In this document: positions 1,776 to 12,524 of the stretch, piece by piece
Position numbering within the stretch: the first letter of the stretch is position 1
Layout of the letters: each line of letters starts with the position of its first letter
Source: an uncultured Paracoccaceae bacterium
GTDB taxonomy: Bacteria; Pseudomonadota; Alphaproteobacteria; Rhodobacterales; Rhodobacteraceae
Direction of reading: 5' to 3'
Length of the DNA: 32,216 bases
Assembly (NCBI GenBank): GCA_903930735.1
Contig: CAIYZT010000150.1
Location: 1-32,216 of the forward strand
The notes under the pieces: generated by a model
The model's database searches: none
Seen by the model: only the letters and a program-made list of their open reading frames with translations
What the model was told of the DNA's origin: nothing
Position numbers and translations under genes: made by a program

Positions 1776-2132
1776 ATGCGTAACGCAGCATTGGTTCTAG
1801 GGATCATTGGTGGAATCTGGGCGATGTTCGTGGGTTTTTTCGGCTATGGCTATACCCGGATCATCGCGGAAAACGCTGAGGTGGAAAGCTGGTTTTGGCA
1901 GGTGGATAACCCCGGATTGATCATGGTGGCCAGCTTTGCCGCCCCGGTCCTGGCCATCGCGGGGGCCGCCATGGCCCGCTCGCGCAACGTGCCCGCCGGG
2001 ATATTGGAGCTGACCGCGGCGGCGCTGCTGCTTTATGCCTTCGGGTTCAACGCCTTCACCATGTTCCCGATTGCCATGTTGGGTCTGGGCGGCGTTCTGG
2101 CCCTAGCTGCCCGCGAGCCGGACAGCCACTAG
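1776..2132 (+). CDS. Small integral membrane protein, unknown function
   Basis: A 118-residue protein with four probable membrane segments: about residues 5-26, 48-68, 76-92 and 94-110. AAGGA precedes the ATG at 1776. I do not recognise a named family, although the glycine-rich first helix and short polar linkers recall small DUF4064-like membrane proteins. The 3' end overlaps the 3' end of the convergent DoxX gene by 30 nt, so both genes share sequence at their C-terminal codons. The short tail RSRN between helices 2 and 3 suggests a cytoplasmic positively charged loop. Function not inferred. Confidence 0.75.
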   Translation: MRNAALVLGIIGGIWAMFVGFFGYGYTRIIAENAEVESWFWQVDNPGLIMVASFAAPVLAIAGAAMARSRNVPAGILELTAAALLLYAFGFNAFTMFPIAMLGLGGVLALAAREPDSH

Positions 2133-2633
2133 GTGGTCCAGCGACAGCGCACCTGCGCCTTTGACCAGCAAAAGCACGAAAAGCAGCATCCAAAAGACGC
2201 GTTGATCGAGGATCAGCGCGTCTGATTGCCGGTCAAAGAATGCGCCGATGGTGGCGGCGCTGGCGCCATGGCCAAAGATATCGGTCAGGCTTTGCAGCGC
2301 GACAAAACCGATCATCCCCAGCGCCGCCAGAGGTGCGGCGAGGCCCAGAATGATCAGCAGCGGCAGCACGATCTCGGCCAGCGCGCCGGCATAGGCGAAC
2401 AGATGCATCCACAGCGGCAGTTGGCTGGCATCATAGCCGACAGCCTCGATCGCCTTGGGAAAGATCTGGGCAAAGGCGCCGGTGGACAGCGCGAAAGGTC
2501 CGTCGAATTTGGTCAGGGCCGAGGCCCAGAAATAGCCCGCCAACACGGCGGCAAAGATCAGCCGAGCAAGGAGCGGCAGCAGGGCGTCGAGCCGCGACAA
2601 GGCCCCGGTGGTCGCAGTGAAAAGCTTGATCAT
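2103..2633 (-). CDS. DoxX-family membrane protein of the bufferin operon
   Basis: A 176-residue protein with four hydrophobic segments (about residues 18-36, 77-100, 102-120 and 145-162) and the DoxX-type N-terminal LARLIFAAVLAGYFWASALTK region. DoxX-family proteins are small quinone- or redox-linked membrane proteins of uncertain activity. The gene is the last of the buf cluster: its ATG overlaps the bufC stop codon by 4 nt (ATGA), which points to translational coupling. The same gene order (DUF2282, DUF692, DUF2063, DoxX) is known from gig/buf operons of Caulobacter and Legionella. The exact role in bufferin function is not established. The sequence appears intact. Confidence 0.88.
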   Translation of the reverse strand: MIKLFTATTGALSRLDALLPLLARLIFAAVLAGYFWASALTKFDGPFALSTGAFAQIFPKAIEAVGYDASQLPLWMHLFAYAGALAEIVLPLLIILGLAAPLAALGMIGFVALQSLTDIFGHGASAATIGAFFDRQSDALILDQRVFWMLLFVLLLVKGAGALSLDHLVAVRLAGS

Positions 2634-3358
2634 ATGATGTCCTGAAGGGCGTTATGGGTGATGAGTAGGGTCAAGAGCGCGGGCAGATCGGCCTCGTCCG
2701 TGCTCGCTTGGGCGGCTAGGCCAAGGGGTTGGCCACCCAGAATCGCAGTCAAGATCGAGGCCGCGCCCGGTGACAGCGGCAGGGGTTTGGGGTCAAATTC
2801 GGCGCGCAGGATCACCAGATCTTCGGGTTTACTATGGCCGAGACTCCCGCCGTCACGGTTCACCGCCCAGATCGACAGGAACGGCCAGTGCGAGCGGATC
2901 AGACGCAGGGAGGGCGCAAGGACGAGCTTGGCGCTCAGAAAGGCCTCTTCGGAAAGGCCGGCGAGGACCTGCGGTGCGATGGGTTTGGCGTCCGCCGAAT
3001 GATAGCTTTCGCGGATCGCCTGCTCCAGCCGGGCGACGTCCGGAAGGTAAGGCAGGGTGGCAACAGGCGGAAAGCTGTCCAGAAAGCTGGGGAAATCGGC
3101 CCCGTAGAGCATCATCAGCCGAGTTTGCGGCGGGTGTTTGCGCAGAAATTCGATTGCCATGGCCTGAAAGAAGGCAGCGCCAACCAGCTTTTCCACGACA
3201 GGAAAGGCGGCTTGCAGCACCCGCACCAGCGAGGCGGTGACATTGTTGCGGTAAACCCCGAAACGGGCCGGGGCAGGGCGACCCTGTGGGTCGACCAGCC
3301 CCGCGGGGGCAGTAGCCACGCCCGACAAAAGCGCCGCGGCAAAGTCAGACTGACGCAT
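2630..3358 (-). CDS. bufC: BufC-like DUF2063 protein, bufferin maturation partner
   Basis: A 242-residue protein matching the DUF2063/HvfC family: an N-terminal [11 protein letters not shown] helix, the [23 protein letters not shown] segment characteristic of the family (about residues 33-55), and a C-terminal alpha/beta domain ending in [14 protein letters not shown]. In MNIO systems this protein escorts the precursor peptide to the DUF692 oxidase. I use the ATG at 3358, not the upstream in-frame ATG at 3439, because the longer version would run deep into bufB and adds a Pro-rich non-family extension. The gene overlaps bufB by 14 nt and doxX by 4 nt, so it is co-translated. It has no visible lesion even though bufB is interrupted. 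Confidence 0.88.
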
Positions 3359-4202
3359 GGACCCGCTCCAGGATCGCGGCGGCAAGGGCGGCTTCGGCGG
3401 CCAATACAGGCCAATCGGGCACGTCATTATCCCATTCAATCAGCGTCGGCCGCGCGCCGCCAATTGTGATCACATGCTCGTAAAGCGCCCAGACCGGGTC
3501 TGCGACCGGGCGGCTGTGGCTGTCGATCAGCAAAGGCGCGGCATGATCATCCAAGTCCGATTCATGCCCGCCAAGGTGAATTTCTCCAACCAGATCAAGG
3601 GGAAAGCTGCGGATGTATTCCTCGGCGCTGGTCTGTTGATTGACGGCCGAGACATGGACATTATTCACATCGAGCAGCAGCCCGCAGCCGGTGCGTCGCC
3701 CGATTTCCCGCAGGAAATCCACCTCGGACATCGTTGTTTCGCTGAAGGCGAGATAGCTGGAAGGGTTTTCCAGTAGCATTTGCCGGCCCAGCACCGACTG
3801 CACTTCATCTATGTGATCACAAACCTGGGTCAGCGTCGCCTTGGTATAGGGCAGGGGCAAAAGATCGTTCAAAAACGCGCCCTCATGCGTCGATCAGGCC
3901 AGATGTTCGGAAAAGCTGGCGGGCGAAAGCCAGTCCAACAGGTGCTTTAGCCGCGCCAGATGACCCGCGTCCAGACGGCCCTCGCCGCCGATCGACAGGC
4001 CCACGCCGTGCACCGAAATCGCAAAACGTTCGGACAAATGCCGCAACTGGGCCAGCGGCCGCCCGCCATCGCCCATGTAATTCTCGGCATGAATCTCGAT
4101 CCAGGACACATCGCCCGGCGCGTTCAAAATGCCCTGCAGATGCTGCGGCTTGTAGCCAACCCCCGGAGCAAGCGGCAAACGGCTTTTGCGATTGTCCAAC
4201 AT
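3345..4202 (-). pseudogene. bufB: bufB (DUF692/MNIO oxidase) interrupted by in-frame TGA
   Basis: The product would be a DUF692 multinuclear iron oxidase that modifies Cys residues of BufA. Two collinear ORFs in one frame (N part to 3894, C part from about 3872) together give a family-length protein of about 285 residues. They are separated by TGA at 3896-3894, codon 103, within SEHLA[20 protein letters not shown]; relatives have Trp there (SEHLAW), so TGG became TGA. Conserved metal-site segments are split between the halves: WIEIHAEN, SVHGVGLS and SEH before the stop; [17 protein letters not shown] and IEWDNDVP after it. Neither half should be active alone. There is no other lesion, so the change is recent, a sequencing error, or read through at a low level. 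I prefer the ATG at 4202 (MLDNRKS), with GAGG upstream; a longer start at 4241 is possible. Confidence 0.88.
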
Positions 4203-4250
4203 ATCCGTACCTCGCGCTTTCAGCTGACACAAATATTCCACGGGGGGAGA

Positions 4251-4277
4251 GGCTCACTTGGCCTTGCCAAGTGAGCC
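4251..4277 (-). promoter_or_regulatory. Strong hairpin between bufA and bufB
   Basis: Perfect 12-bp stem (GGCTCACTTGGC / GCCAAGTGAGCC) with a 3-nt loop, 25 nt after the bufA stop codon. Runs of G (4242-4247) and C outside it could extend the structure. No U-tract follows in the direction of transcription, so it is more likely an mRNA-stabilising or processing element, or a partial attenuator, that keeps the precursor BufA more abundant than its modifying enzymes. Confidence 0.65.
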
Positions 4278-4302
4278 GAGGAGCGGCGTGAGTCCCCCCT
4301 TT

Positions 4303-4614
4303 TTAGCCTTCCATCGGCAGATCGCGTGGCAGAGCTTCCATCGCGCCCATACGCGCCACGCCGTCTTCAGCGGCTGGCAGTTCCATCGTCAGGCAAGTGC
4401 CAACCGGCACCAGCGTCCAGGCATTGCCCTGATAGTCAACTTTCGAGGTGCCAGCGCAGGTGGTGCCTTCGCCTGCAGCGCAGTCATTCTGGCCGGCCAT
4501 CGCCACGCCAAAGCACTTCTCCATAGCTTCTTCAGCCTGAGAGATCTGAGCGGTCGCCGACAGGGCAGCGGCCAGAGCGCCGACAGCGGCGAGGGCCTTG
4601 AATTGGATCGACAT
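4303..4614 (-). CDS. bufA: BufA1-type bufferin precursor (DUF2282)
   Basis: A 103-residue precursor with an N-terminal signal peptide (hydrophobic stretch about residues 7-22, then [11 protein letters not shown]) and four cysteines at about 34, 45, 53 and 74 in the arrangement [14 protein letters not shown]...[16 protein letters not shown]...GTC, which is the hallmark of the BufA1/DUF2282 family. In studied members the cysteines are converted to thiooxazole-type groups by BufB with BufC, and the exported peptide binds copper in the periplasm. The ATG at 4614 is chosen over that at 4626 because GGAG lies 6 nt before it. It is the first gene of the buf operon. With bufB interrupted, the peptide may be made unmodified. 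Confidence 0.92.
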
Positions 4615-4756
4615 GGTGTTCTCCATCAGTTGGTTGCGTCACTTGGGTTCAGTCTTTCGACAAATCCATCTCTACGCTGTCAGCCCGCTCACGGGCCAAT
4701 CACGCATTCGTTGCCCACCGTCTCGTGACCAGATTGCGCCCGCCGTGATCGCCTTG

Positions 4757-4797
4757 AAACGTAAAGGGCGCTAGGATGTTGCACGCCCTTTACGTTT
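4757..4797 (-). terminator. Likely thrS transcription terminator
   Basis: Perfect 14-bp inverted repeat (AAACGTAAAGGGCG / CGCCCTTTACGTTT) with a 13-nt loop, starting 22 nt beyond the thrS stop codon in the thrS direction. The stem ends in TTT only, so it is not a textbook U-tract terminator, but its position between thrS and the bufA promoter fits insulation of the two units. Confidence 0.6.
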
Positions 4798-4818
4798 AAA
4801 AACAAACTATGACCCCGT

Positions 4819-6762
4819 TCAATGCTGCGGTGGCAGGGCTTCGAGGCCGAAGGTCGCGATGGCGCTAGCCAGGCTGATTGTTTCAACCCGTGTTTCGCCC
4901 AAGCGGCGCACTGCAACACTGCGCTCTTCGACTTCCTTCATGCCGATCGCCAGGATCACGGGCACTTTACCCACCGAATGCTCGCGCACCTTGTAGTTGA
5001 TCTTTTCATTGCGGGTATCGGCCTCGGCCCGCACCCCGGCGCGGCGCAACTCGGTCACGATCTCAGTCACGAAGTCATCCGCGTCCGAGACGATCGAGGC
5101 CACCACCACCTGCCGCGGCGCGAGCCAGAACGGCAGCTTGCCCGCGTAGTTCTCCAGCAGGATGCCGATAAAGCGCTCAAACGAGCCCAAGATCGCGCGG
5201 TGCAGCATGACGGGGGAATGTTTGGCCCCATCCTCACCGACATATTCCGCCTCCAGCCGCACCGGCGTGTTGAAATCACACTGAAAGGTGCCGCATTGCC
5301 ATTCGCGGCCGATAGCGTCGGTCAGTTTGAAATCGAGCTTCGGCCCATAAAAGGCCCCATCGCCCGGATTGATCGTATAGGGCAGCGCTAGCCGTTCGAT
5401 GGCCTTTTGCAAGGCATCCTCGGCCTTGTCCCAAACTTCGTCCGACCCCACCCGCACATCGGGCCGGGTAGAAAGTTTGATGTCGAATTTGGTAAAGCCG
5501 AGGTCTTTGTAGACCGAGGACAGCAGCTCGATAAAGTCAGCGCATTCCTGCTGGATCTGATCGACGGTGCAAAAGATATGCGCATCATCCTGCGTGAAGC
5601 CGCGCACCCGCATCAGCCCGTGCATCGAGCCCGAGGATTCGTAGCGGTGGCACGACCCAAACTCCGCCAGACGCAGCGGCAGATCGCGATAGGACTTCAG
5701 CCCCTGATTGAACACCTGCACATGGCAGGGGCAATTCATCGGCTTCAGCGCATTGATCCGCTTTTCCTTGGCCCCGTCCTCGTCCACTTCGACGATGAAC
5801 ATATTCTCACGGTAAGCCTCCCAATGACCTGATTTCTCCCACAAAACCCGGTCCACCACCTGCGGCGTCCTGATCTCGCGGTATCCGGCCGCCTTTTGCC
5901 GCCCGCGCATGTAATCTTCAAGCTGGCGGTAAATCGTCCAGCCATTGGGGTGCCAAAACACCATGCCGGGCGCTTCTTCCTGCAGATGGAACAACTCCAT
6001 CTCGCGGCCGATCTTGCGGTGGTCGCGCTTTGCAGCCTCCTCCAGCATCAGCTGATGCGCCTTCAGATCCTCACGGTTTTTAAAGGCCAGACCGTAAATG
6101 CGCTGCAACATCGGGCGCGAGGCATCACCCAGCCAGTAGGCGCCCGCGACATGTGTCAACTTGAAACCATCCGCCGGAACCTGCCCCGTATGGGCCAGAT
6201 GGGGCCCGCGGCAAAAATCCTGCCAGCCCCCGTGCCAATACATCCTGAGATCCTCGCCCTCGGGGATCCGCGCGATCAGCTCCAGCTTGAAAGGCTCGCC
6301 GCGCTCCTCATAATAGGCAATGGCGCGCGCGCGGTCCCAAACTTCGGTCCTCACCGGCTCGCGGGCGTTGATGATCTGCTTCATCTTCGCTTCGATCGCG
6401 CCCAGATCTTCGGGCGTGAAGGGCTCGGCGCGGTCGAAATCGTAAAACCAGCCATAGTCGCGCACCGGGCCGATGGTCACCTTCACATCGGGCCAAATCT
6501 CCTGCACGGCGCGGGCCATGATATGGGCGCAGTCGTGCCGGATCAGCTCCAGCGCCGGGGCCTCGTCCTTCAGCGTATTGATCGAGATTTTGGCGCTCTG
6601 CGGGATCGGCCACTGCAAATCCCAATGCGCGCCGTCCAGTTGCGCCGAAATCGCCGCCTTGGCCAGCGAGGGCGCGATCGACATTGCCACCTCGGCCGCC
6701 GTCACTCCGGCCGCATAGATGCGGATATTGCCATCGGGGAAAGTCAGGGAAATCTGGGACAT
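4819..6762 (-). CDS. thrS: Threonyl-tRNA synthetase
   Basis: A 647-residue class II synthetase that charges tRNA-Thr, of usual bacterial length. Domains in order: TGS (about 1-62), editing domain with the HxxxH metal motif ([10 protein letters not shown], His76 and His80), catalytic core with the zinc-site Cys (PMNCPCHV) and motif 2 ([23 protein letters not shown]), then the C-terminal anticodon-binding domain ([11 protein letters not shown]... to the end). The ATG at 6762 is preceded by GAGGAGG at an ideal distance; the in-frame extension up to 6909 is not family-like. Essential housekeeping gene, monocistronic, divergent from the hydrolase operon. No T-box-like leader is visible, as expected for a proteobacterium. 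Confidence 0.98.
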
Positions 6763-6932
6763 ATCGTCCTCCTCGTCGTTTTGGCGCCTACGAAACGCCC
6801 GGTTGCGGGTTATGTAGCACCGTTTTTGGCGGGGCGGCGGTCGAATGTCAACCGGGGCACCTCGGCCAGCCCCTTGATGAATCAGAATTTCTTTCCGGCC
6901 GAAATGCATTAGGAAAAGGTTAGGAGAATCCG

Positions 6933-7685
6933 ATGACCGAATTGATCACCGAATCCGGGCGACGGATCGCCTATAGCCTTGAGCCCGGCGCGGGGCCCGT
7001 GGTGGTGTTTTGCGGCGGCTACGGCAGCGACATGCTAGGTACCAAGGCGACGGATCTGCAAGGTTGGGCGCGCGCGACCGGCCGGGCCTTTGTGCGGTTC
7101 GACTATTCCGGACATGGGCAATCGTCGGGAAACTTCCGCGACGGGACGATCACCGACTGGACGCAAGACGCCGTGGCGGTGATTTCAGCGGTGACCTGCG
7201 GTCCGCTGATCCTTGTCGGCTCGTCCATGGGCGGCTGGATCGCACTTTTGATTGCGCGCGCGATGCCAGAGCGGATTGCGGCCTTTGTCGGTGTGGCCGC
7301 CGCCCCTGATTTCACCCAGGATCTGATGTGGATGTCCTTTTCAGACGCCGAAAAGGATCAGTTAAAGGCCATCGGCTGGATAGGGCGCCCTTCGCCCTAT
7401 TCGCCCCAGCCCGAGGTCATCACGATGAAACTGATCGACGATGGCGCCCGGAATCTGGTGCTGCGCGAACCCTTGGACCTGCCCTTCCCGGTGCGGCTTT
7501 TGCACGGTTCGGCGGACAGCGACGTGCCGGTTTCCGTGGCCCGGCGGCTCTTGGACCATGCAAGCGGGCCGGATATGCGTCTGACAATCGTCAAGGACGC
7601 CGATCACCGCTTTTCATCGCCGCGATGCCTTGCCATGATTTCTGAGACTTTGAATGACCTCTTGAAAGGATCGAAAAATGCGTAG
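6933..7685 (+). CDS. Alpha/beta hydrolase (ABHD10/esterase-like), intact
   Basis: A 250-residue alpha/beta hydrolase. The nucleophile elbow is G-S-S-M-G-G ([11 protein letters not shown], about residues 94-100); an Asp in the ADSDVP segment and a His in KDADHRFS complete the triad. An oxyanion-type GGYGSD follows the first strand. The best-matching described group is the ABHD10-like thioesterase/carboxylesterase family; the substrate is unknown. AGGAG precedes the ATG at 6933. It is the first gene of a three-hydrolase operon; its stop overlaps the next start by 8 nt. Unlike its two neighbours it has no lesion. Confidence 0.85.
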
Positions 7686-8664
7686 ATTTGGCCGGATTTT
7701 GGGGCGTATCCTGCTGGTTTTGCTAGCGCTTTTCGCTGCGGCTTGGGCGCTTGCCCCGGTTGAGCCTGTCGACCGCGTGATCGCCTTTGACGCCGCGGCC
7801 ATCGGGCCGGACATTCAGGCCTGGCTCGATAGATCCGAATTTCAGCTTGCCGATCTGAACCCGGCGGCGGCCAAAAGAGTGGTCTGAGCCGGGAAAAAGG
7901 GCGCCAAAACCCCGCTCGCCCTGATCTATATTCACGGCTTTTCGGCCTCCGCCGAAGAGATCCGCCCGGTTCCCGATGATGTCGCCAAAGCGCTTGGCGC
8001 CAATCTGTTTTACACCCGGCTCAAGGGCCACGGCCTGCCCGGAGAGGCTATGGCCGAGGCCACCGCCGGCGATTGGATCGAGGATACAGCCGAGGCTATG
8101 GCCATTGGCCGTCTTCTGGGCGATCGGGTGGTGATCATCTCGACCTCGACAGGCGGAACGCTGGCCGCCATTGCAGCAACCGATCCTGCCCTGTCGCAAG
8201 ACCTCGCCGGTATCGTTATGATTTCGCCCAACTTTGGCATCAGATCGGCAGCGGCCAAGATCCTTGATATGCCTTTTGCGCGGGTTTGGGGCCCCATGGT
8301 TGCCGGGGCCACCCGCAGCTTTACCCCGCAGAACGCCGAACATGCCCGGTATTGGACCACCTCCTATCCCACCCTGGCCCTGTTCCCGATGGCGGCCCTA
8401 GTGCGTCATGCCAACAGCCTTGACTATAGCGCGGTCACGGTGCCCGCTTTGGTGCTTTATGCCCAGCAGGATCAAGTGGTTGACCCGGCCAGAACCGAAT
8501 CCGTGATGGCCGGCTGGGGCGGGCCCAAGCAGATGGAGCAGCGGGTTTTGACCCCGCCCGATGACCCTTATTCGCATGTGATCGCGGGCGATGTTCTGTC
8601 GCCGGGGCAAACGGCCGAGACGGTCGCGCTGATCGTCGCATGGGCCAAGGGCCAAGGATTTTGA
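7678..8664 (+). pseudogene. Membrane-anchored alpha/beta hydrolase with in-frame TGA
   Basis: A single frame of 329 codons is interrupted only by TGA at 7885-7887 (codon 70) in the context RVV-stop-AGKKGAKTPLALIYIHGF. The context (beta strand before IYIHGFSA) implies an original TGG Trp codon. The N-terminus has one signal-anchor helix (about residues 9-25). After the stop come the oxyanion HGF, a nucleophile elbow STSTGG (usual form G-x-S-x-G), an Asp (AQQDQVVDP) and a His (DPYSHVIAGD), so all catalytic residues lie downstream of the stop. The only start seen after the stop is an internal ATG at 8050, well inside the fold. The end overlaps the next start (TGATG). Loss-of-function mutation or sequencing error. 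Confidence 0.85.
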
Positions 8665-9373
8665 TGTCCAAGGCGCTGGTTTTTATCCCCGGACTGATGG
8701 CCGATGCGTGGCTTTTCCTGCCGCAGATCGTGCGGCTTGGGGCGGAACATGCCTGCTAGATCTTGCTGCCAACGCGGGGCGAAACGGTCGAGCAGATGTC
8801 CGAGGGTTGTTGCCGAGCCTGCCTGAAAGCTTTGTTCTGATCCGTCAGGGCCTCGGCGGCGATGTCGCGCTGGATATCGTGCGCCGCATCCCTACCCGGG
8901 TCTCGCGGCTGGTGCTGATCGGCACCGACCCGCTTTCCGAGCCGCCGCAAGCCGCCGTTAGCCGCGAAATACGGATGCAGGCGGCCCGCGTGGGGCGATT
9001 GGCTGATGCGATCCTGGGCGAGGTGCCGCCAAACTGCCTGGCCGACACCCCTTGGCGGGATGAGGTTTTGGCTTTGGTCAGCGATATGGCCATGGGGCTG
9101 GGCGAGGGGGTCTATCTGCGCCAGTCCCGCGCCCTGCAGCGCCGTCCCGATCAACAAAAGACCATGCGCCGGATCAAGTTGCCGACGCTGGTCATCGCCG
9201 GGGCCTGCGATACGCTCGTGTCCCTGCGGCGGCAGGAGTTTACCGCGAATCTGATGCCTTTTGGCACCTTTACCGTCATTGATCACGCCGGCCACCTGCC
9301 CACGCTGGAGCAACCGGAGGCGGTCCTGGCCGCGATGGAGACCTTTTTTAACGGCCCCGTCTTGCTGCGCTGA
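8664..9373 (+). pseudogene. Alpha/beta hydrolase with nonsense codon and 1-nt deletion
   Basis: Translation from the ATG at 8664 gives MSKALVFIPGLMADAWLF..., a normal start of a small hydrolase. It stops at TAG 8757-8759, where the context HAC-stop-ILLPTRGETVEQMSE suggests an original CAG (Gln). At 8805-8806 one base is missing; beyond it the homologous reading continues one frame back as GLLPSLPESFVLIRQGLGGDVAL to 9373. The restored length would be 236 residues. The nucleophile elbow reads RQGLGG, where active relatives have G-x-S-x-G, so the catalytic Ser also seems lost. Asp and His regions remain (GACDTLVS, DHAGHLPTLEQP). Two independent frame lesions make this a clear pseudogene. It overlaps the 3' end of phaZ by 26 nt. 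Confidence 0.9.
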
Positions 9374-10712: not shown

Positions 10713-10736
10713 AAAGAATAGGGGCGAAAGATAAGC

Positions 10737-12524
10737 ATGACAACATCTGATCGCGATCAGGACGGCATGCCCAGCCGTCTGGAGGAAAACCTCGCCAAGA
10801 TCGAGGCGCTTTCGGCGCGGATGATGCAGGCGCTTTCCCAGCGAAAGGCGGCGGATCCGGGGGTTGGCGGGCCGTCTAACGAGTTGTTCATGAAGGCGGC
10901 GGCGGCCTATGTCGCAACGATGATGCAGGATCCGGCGCGGGTCATGGAACAGCAGGTCGCCTATTGGGGCCGCACGCTAAAGCATTACGCCGCCGCACAA
11001 AACGCGCTAGCCTCGGGCGAATTCAAAGCGCCGGAGGCGGGTCCCGCCCCGAAGGACCGCCGCTTTGCCAATCCCTTGTGGGACACGCATCCCGGTTTCA
11101 ACTTTCTGAAATCGCAGTACCTGCTCAACGCCGATGCGGTGAAAGAAGCGGTTGGTGGCATGGATCTGGAGGAAAAGGAAAAGGCCCGCGTCGCCTATTT
11201 CACCCGTCAGATCGTGGACATGATGGCGCCGACCAACTTTCTGGCCACGAATCCGGACGCTTTGGAAAAGGCGGTTGCGACCGAGGGGGCGTCTTTGGTG
11301 CAGGGGCTTGAAAACCTCGTGGCTGATCTTGAGGCGTCCAACGGGGATCTGATCGTGACGTTGGCGGACAAAGAGGCTTTTGTCATCGGCGAAAACATTG
11401 CCACCGCGCCGGGCAAAGTCGTGTTCCGCAATCATCTGTTGGAGTTGATCCAGTACAGCCCCAGCACCCAGAGCACCTTTGAGACCCCGCTGCTGATCTT
11501 TCCGCCTTGGATCAACAAATTCTATGTAATGGATATGAAGCCGCAGAATTCATTGATCAAATGGATTGTGGATCAAGGGTTTAGCCTGTTCGTTGTCTCT
11601 TGGGTCAATCCTGATGCCAGCTATAGCGGGATCAGTATGGACGACTATATTGAGGACGGATTCATCGCAGCGATGGACCTGGTCCGCGAAGTCAGTGGGC
11701 AGGAACAGATCAACGCCGTGGGTTATTGTATCGCGGGCACGACGCTGGGCCTGACCCTTTCGCATCTGCAAAGCCTCGGGCAATTACCCCTGCGCTCGGC
11801 CACGTTTTTCACCACAATGACCGATTTTTCCGATCCGGGCGAGGTTGGGGTCTTCCTCGCCGCCGATTTTCTGGACGGAATCGGCCGCCAGATCGACACT
11901 GATGGCATCCTGTCCAAGACCTTCATGAGCCGGACCTTTTCCTTTCTGCGCTCCAACGATCTGATCTATGGTCCGGCGATCAAAAGCTACATGATGGGCG
12001 AGGCGCCGCCCGCCTTTGACCTTTTGTTCTGGAACGGGGACGGCACCAACCTGCCGGGCAAAATGGCCAAGGACTATCTGCTGGGTTTGTGCCGCGACGA
12101 TGGTTTTGCCCGCGGCGAATTTCTGGTCAAAGGCAAACCCACTGCCCTGTCGGGGGTCACCTTGCCGCTCTGCGCCATTGCCTGCGAGACCGATCATATC
12201 GCCCATTGGCGAGGATCGTTTAATGGAATCAAGCAGATGGGTTCTGACGACAAGACGCTTATCCTCTCGCAGTCAGGCCATATCGCCGGGATCATCAACC
12301 CGCCATCCAAGGGCAAATACGGCCATTACACGAATTCGGGCCCGATGAGCACCGCCGATGAGTGGCGCGCGGAGGCCGAATTTCACCCCGGCTCCTGGTG
12401 GCCGCGTTGGAGGACTTGGCTCGCGGGGCATTCGGGCGCGCAGGTGCCGGCGCGGCATCCGGACCCAAATCGGGTGCTTTGCGATGCGCCGGGTACCTAT
12501 GTTTCGGCGATTCCGGCCGCCTGA
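10737..12524 (+). CDS. phaC: Class I poly(3-hydroxybutyrate) synthase
   Basis: A 595-residue class I PHA synthase that polymerises 3-hydroxyacyl-CoA at the granule surface. The lipase-like box has the catalytic Cys (GYCIAGT, Cys331); Asp486 (CETDHIAHW) and His515 (QSGHIAGIINPP) complete the triad. The N-terminal helical region (about 1-200) and the PPWINKFYVMDMKPQNSLIKW block are typical. Length and motifs are normal. There is no strong Shine-Dalgarno before the ATG at 10737 (only GGGGCGAAAG), which may mean modest translation. It is divergent from phaZ and upstream of phaP and phaR. Acetoacetyl-CoA supply genes (phaAB) are not in the window. Confidence 0.97.
   Translation: MTTSDRDQDGMPSRLEENLAKIEALSARMMQALSQRKAADPGVGGPSNELFMKAAAAYVATMMQDPARVMEQQVAYWGRTLKHYAAAQNALASGEFKAPEAGPAPKDRRFANPLWDTHPGFNFLKSQYLLNADAVKEAVGGMDLEEKEKARVAYFTRQIVDMMAPTNFLATNPDALEKAVATEGASLVQGLENLVADLEASNGDLIVTLADKEAFVIGENIATAPGKVVFRNHLLELIQYSPSTQSTFETPLLIFPPWINKFYVMDMKPQNSLIKWIVDQGFSLFVVSWVNPDASYSGISMDDYIEDGFIAAMDLVREVSGQEQINAVGYCIAGTTLGLTLSHLQSLGQLPLRSATFFTTMTDFSDPGEVGVFLAADFLDGIGRQIDTDGILSKTFMSRTFSFLRSNDLIYGPAIKSYMMGEAPPAFDLLFWNGDGTNLPGKMAKDYLLGLCRDDGFARGEFLVKGKPTALSGVTLPLCAIACETDHIAHWRGSFNGIKQMGSDDKTLILSQSGHIAGIINPPSKGKYGHYTNSGPMSTADEWRAEAEFHPGSWWPRWRTWLAGHSGAQVPARHPDPNRVLCDAPGTYVSAIPAA

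Follow-up and report, generated by a model that had tools for sequence, protein, structure and literature searches.

A premature TGA in the bufferin maturase gene bufB of an uncultured Paracoccaceae bacterium: probable recent inactivation in an apparently dispensable operon

We analyzed a window, i.e., a contiguous stretch of 32,216 nucleotides, from the draft genome of an uncultured Paracoccaceae bacterium (3.65 Mb, 441 contigs, completeness 100, contamination 4.45). Its bufB gene, coding for the MNIO/DUF692 maturase of bufferin, a copper-binding peptide, is interrupted by an in-frame TGA at codon 103. This probably reflects a nonsense mutation of recent date, in an operon that the bacterium can do without and within a genus that is shedding its bufferins. 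Four parts of this reading are what we infer: that the base is real, that the enzyme has lost its activity, that the stop is polar on bufC and that the operon can be dispensed with. Within the species, of which no second strain was seen, the TGA may be confined to a minority or to a single strain.

Reading frame of bufB and layout of its operon

Read on the minus strand, bufB comprises 285 codons, one of them the internal stop, and a terminal TGA. The stop falls between the segments SEHLA and STHEG, with 102 residues preceding it in the gene as assembled. With TGA read as Trp, the frame matched Pfam PF05114, and the read-through product scored above the cut-off of 310 for NF050167 (MNIO_BufB), which marks it as a BufB-type MNIO enzyme (Table 1). 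The solved structure nearest to this product in sequence was that of a DUF692 protein from Histophilus somni (PDB 3BWW, E 1.4e-38); 3BWW has Phe where the window protein aligns Trp103.

In the 80 Rhodobacteraceae relatives that we fetched, codon 103 of bufB was TGG without exception, and none of them had a stop at this site. Moreover, 79 of the 80 were free of any internal stop in bufB, so the lesion affects a gene that is intact elsewhere. The original prediction, i.e., a TGA where Trp is expected, at codon 103 behind SEHLA and before STHEG, was thus borne out, also by the comparison with other genomes that it had proposed. It had further suggested looking for a second bufB able to act in trans. 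Searched with PF05114, our 441-contig assembly gave one match, the broken bufB itself, and no second MNIO gene was seen. Selenocysteine at codon 103 was ruled out by the Trp found in all 80 relatives.

Table 1. Coordinates of bufB, its operon neighbors and the other broken genes in the window
Feature	Position	Strand	Remarks
bufB (MNIO/DUF692 bufferin maturase), interrupted, probable recent pseudogene	3345..4202	-	PF05114 340.7 bits, NF050167 368.8 bits, TGA read as Trp
In-frame TGA, bufB codon 103	3894..3896	-	Trp (all TGG) in 80/80 relatives
bufA, bufferin precursor (DUF2282), four Cys and hydrophobic N-terminal segment intact	4303..4626	-	PF10048 87 bits
bufC, DUF2063 partner protein, intact; likely start 3358	2630..3358 (start about)	-	PF09836 91 bits on longer ORF 2630-3439
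doxX, intact	2103..2633	-	PF07681 32.4 bits
thrS, open conserved neighbor, upstream side of operon	4819..6909	-	
DUF4064-like gene, open, downstream side of operon	1776..2132	+	sub-threshold Pfam match
17-nt inverted repeat between thrS and bufA	4754..4800	not assigned	94% complementary, arms 13 nt apart
Second broken gene, alpha/beta hydrolase-like	7678..8664	+	TGA at 7885-7887, Trp in sister
Third broken gene, alpha/beta hydrolase-like, 5' limit approximate	8667..9373	+	TAG at 8757-8759 (Gln in sister) and frameshift near 8804-8813

On the minus strand, thrS, bufA, bufB, bufC and doxX follow each other in this order, and the DUF4064-like gene and arsC come next on the opposite strand. The overlaps amount to 14 nt for bufB/bufC and 4 nt for bufC/doxX. 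The genes around bufB had been described as intact and still coupled. Their reading frames are indeed open, with few near-invariant columns changed (0/30 in bufA, 0/29 in bufC and 1/31 in doxX). Coupling holds for the gene arrangement only; translation of bufC is presumably weakened, as the stop lies about 180 codons ahead of its start. The inverted repeat is probably the thrS terminator; bufA would then be cut off from thrS transcription and left with a promoter of its own.

The nearest known system is the bufABC-doxX cluster of Bufferin-1 (Buf1, DUF2282; PMC12452194). The two share the family of the precursor with its four Cys, the DUF2063 partner, DoxX and, if TGA is read as Trp, the type of MNIO enzyme; bufABC stand in the same order, here with doxX behind them. 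A Sec signal peptide on the window BufA was judged by eye, and DUF2282 matched only once in our assembly, in the same operon as bufB. The difference from the Buf1 cluster is the premature stop in the MNIO gene of the window. For precursors without linked MNIO genes, the same paper considers that an enzyme encoded elsewhere might modify them, or that they might stay unmodified (PMC12452194).

Constraint along bufB and decoding of UGA

Codon 103 aside, 87 columns were invariant in the 80 relatives, and bufB of the window has kept every one, 41 before the stop and 46 after it. Constraint past the lesion, which is relaxed in a pseudogene, hence appeared undiminished. Among the near-invariant columns 1 of 117 was changed (Leu to Ile at 35), which is the median of 81 sequences. 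Neutral drift of a few percent would hit several invariant columns, and the lesion would therefore be very young, or a consensus error, or tolerated by way of read-through. Neutral divergence since the lesion can be roughly estimated at less than about 1.5-3%. The 87 intact columns are equally expected from a one-base consensus error and from functional read-through.

The open thrS gene had 6 of 313 near-invariant columns changed (median 1, maximum 33 in 74 sequences). By these counts the ThrS of the window appears more divergent than most, and bufB typical; the comparison speaks neither for nor against a nonsense mutation.

UGA is an ordinary stop in this genome. RF2 gave a match of 480.8 bits (cut-off 370) without stops, and TGA was the terminator of 356 of the 618 genes predicted in the sampled stretches of our assembly. 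At 708 positions, in 133 aligned genes, where the sister species has Trp, our genome had TGG in 662 cases and TGA in three, among which only the one at 7885 lay in a good alignment. We hence reject a genome-wide reassignment of UGA. Read-through of UGA had been offered in the original prediction as an alternative to an unmodified precursor; as a normal feature of the genome it finds no support in these numbers.

None of the 28 tRNA loci matching RF00005 in our assembly had a UCA anticodon, in a list that is incomplete, given that tRNA-Trp is absent from it. With so few tRNA genes and none for Trp, some of the sequence is probably missing in spite of the completeness value. A suppressor tRNA was also sought with an anticodon-stem pattern. 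The lone TCA match was not a tRNA by ARAGORN or Rfam and lay in a stretch that reads as protein-coding, ftsA-like by eye, and this candidate was rejected.

Read-through might still be functional at the level of single genes, if tRNA-Trp misread UGA at low frequency so that a little full-length BufB and some maturation resulted. Near-cognate misreading of UGA inserts Trp, i.e., the very residue replaced at codon 103. Also, the 46 invariant positions past the stop are intact, and a second gene of the window has TGA at a Trp position. RF2 is intact, however, and the codons behind the two TGAs differ (TCG and GCC). Moreover, the TAG and the frameshift of the third broken gene are beyond repair by UGA read-through, the incomplete set of tRNA loci is devoid of UCA anticodons, and the premature bufB stop of a relative sits at another codon (52). 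Taken together, we consider functional read-through quite improbable. A variant of it, to which we attach very little credence, holds that the TGA is real and leaky and that this native nonsense codon keeps the maturase dose low and BufA in excess; it would imply a trickle of full-length BufB through misreading by tRNA-Trp at codon 103.

Translation could also restart past the stop, e.g., at the in-frame TTG of codon 111, and the two fragments could together form an active enzyme. A GAGG stretch is found 8 nt ahead of this TTG, but it lies within codons 107-108 of an ordinary bufB, and GAG stands at 107 in five of the 80 relatives, all without a stop at codon 103. A gene split at codon 103 had no counterpart among the 80, and the break would come right behind the invariant SEH segment. 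We deem such a split gene hardly credible.

Relatives, sister species and other broken genes

The best BufB relatives found, which have thrS as a neighbor too, were mostly Rhodobacteraceae by name. thrS followed by bufA-bufB-bufC was seen at 73 of the 80 loci, and the complete eight-gene pattern hydrolase-thrS-bufA-bufB-bufC-doxX-(DUF4064-like)-arsC at 36. In the sister species (G001) both flanks of the operon match (10720-10830 of locus L093 against 2122-4823 of the window), but they lie 36 nt apart and bufABC-doxX is gone. Neither a BufB/MNIO gene nor DUF2282 was found in the sister genome. The simplest reading is that bufABC-doxX is an ancestral operon that was deleted in the sister; with a sister lacking all of it, the operon appears dispensable in the genus.

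In a survey of the family, 278 of 394 genomes, some of them incomplete, had BufB. The other 116 gave no match, so that BufB is often lost or else absent from draft sequences. Should the base be real, the operon of the window would have been caught just after its inactivation, beside a sister species that is wholly without it, and this would fit bufferins being readily lost in Rhodobacteraceae.

Premature stops in bufB are rare, not unique. One of the 80 relatives, a Boseongicola MAG (locus L036, 2891-3715), shows a premature stop too, at codon 52. By position, contig C288 of genome G161 is the same place, with one TAA inside bufB; among the family-survey matches listed, our own genome aside, G161 was alone in having a bufB stop. 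Like the window gene, this bufB is otherwise normal, has a single premature stop and is accompanied by matches to bufA, bufC and doxX. It differs in the site of the stop, i.e., codon 52 (TAA in the G161 match) instead of 103.

Two further genes of the window are broken. Adjoining thrS, three consecutive alpha/beta-hydrolase-like genes occupy 6933-9373 on the plus strand, and the last two of them carry lesions, 4.0 and 4.9 kb from the bufB stop. The first (6933-7685) is open and showed the highest pN of 129 own/sister gene pairs (0.282; pN/pS 0.456). The two broken genes ranked 111 and 113 of 129 by pN.

The main rival to a nonsense mutation is a sequencing or assembly error, i.e., a single wrong consensus base in an organism that has TGG and an intact bufB. 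TGA is one base away from TGG, and invariant residues are kept on both sides of it. Also, the draft is fragmented, and all accepted lesions share one contig, whose local consensus is possibly poor. We compared 683.8 kb of our assembly with 1,200.4 kb of the sister genome, whereby 134 sister genes (46,024 aa) were matched; bufB, absent from the sister, is outside this census. Judged by eye, only the two hydrolase genes of the window were broken among these 134 ortholog matches, which argues against an error. Among the ABC-transporter matches listed, from totals of 120 in our assembly and 132 in the sister, stops were given as 'none' throughout. Moreover, scattered errors should spread evenly, yet one neighboring gene holds two lesions.

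The census counts themselves were higher before inspection. On our side it returned six 'OK' stops, eight 'weak' stops and one frameshift, from which we accepted the stops at 7885 and 8757 and the frameshift. We set aside the four other 'OK' stops because they precede the likely start, at positions 18-58 of ORFs that had been extended automatically. The eight 'weak' ones were set aside because the ends in which they lie align poorly or because a likely start follows them; we are least certain about two of these, at positions 186 and 194 in an ORF of 732 residues. The sister side yielded ten 'OK' and two 'weak' entries (128 genes, 43,688 aa). Seven of the 'OK' entries fell in two multi-stop ORFs that look like wrong-strand calls, and the others lay nearer to N-termini. 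The entry at position 91 of 845 is possibly a true lesion of the sister.

A codon-usage scan pointed the other way. It flagged in-frame stops at a density of 0.139 per kb in our assembly (51 in 367.6 kb, including stretches that read as N) and of 0.054 per kb in the sister (22 in 407.0 kb). This 2.6-fold excess favors an error and speaks against a nonsense mutation. Six of the stops fell in the window: two were the TGAs of bufB and the hydrolase gene, one was the regular stop of doxX and three lay opposite a predicted gene. With false entries among these six, the scan is unreliable and poor evidence for an error-ridden assembly. The homology census showed no general excess of lesions, and we hence rejected the assumption of an error-ridden assembly. 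Overall, stops do not abound in the assembly, and the lesions that we accepted share a single contig, in the neighborhood of the bufferin operon. A wrong base at codon 103 is possible, but we consider a real mutation more likely.

Expected consequences for the bufferin system

Under a recent nonsense mutation, a single base change would have turned the Trp codon into TGA within the ancestral Rhodobacteraceae bufABC-doxX operon. The ribosome would halt after 102 residues, and nearly two thirds of BufB would be lost. The fragment would keep the invariant residues H65, E99 and H100. It would miss the invariant acidic, Asn and His residues beyond the break (E145, N146, D178, N180, N181, H209, D227, H229, E256 and D258) and would presumably be inactive. 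Output of BufC and DoxX should fall as well, because bufB overlaps bufC. Production and export of the BufA precursor would probably continue to some extent, but the Cys-derived thiooxazole rings would be missing from it. The likely phenotype is an unmodified precursor with little BufC and DoxX, i.e., loss of the system.

The original prediction had expected an unmodified precursor if the stop is real, and had seen in it an informative natural knock-out that would also test whether unmodified BufA keeps a function. We agree insofar as BufA is probably made unmodified, but the levels of BufC and DoxX should be lowered too. As a natural knock-out the gene has become less informative. With two hydrolase genes broken as well, bufB does not stand out; the operon as a whole is missing from the sister; and a stop that is polar on bufC and doxX would not give a clean knock-out. 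With BufC and DoxX affected, it would also be a poor test for a function of unmodified BufA. Taken as a recent nonsense mutation, the case is an unremarkable loss of a gene from a system of known type, and the bufB stop leaves the knowledge of MNIO enzymes and of the genetic code unchanged.

An orphan bufA in genome G278, which has DUF2282 and is not BufB-positive, was considered as another test of unmodified BufA and rejected, since the match ends 100 bases before the contig end. Genome G131 looked similar. Three of the relatives' loci (L012, L014 and L018) have two tandem bufA matches ahead of bufB.
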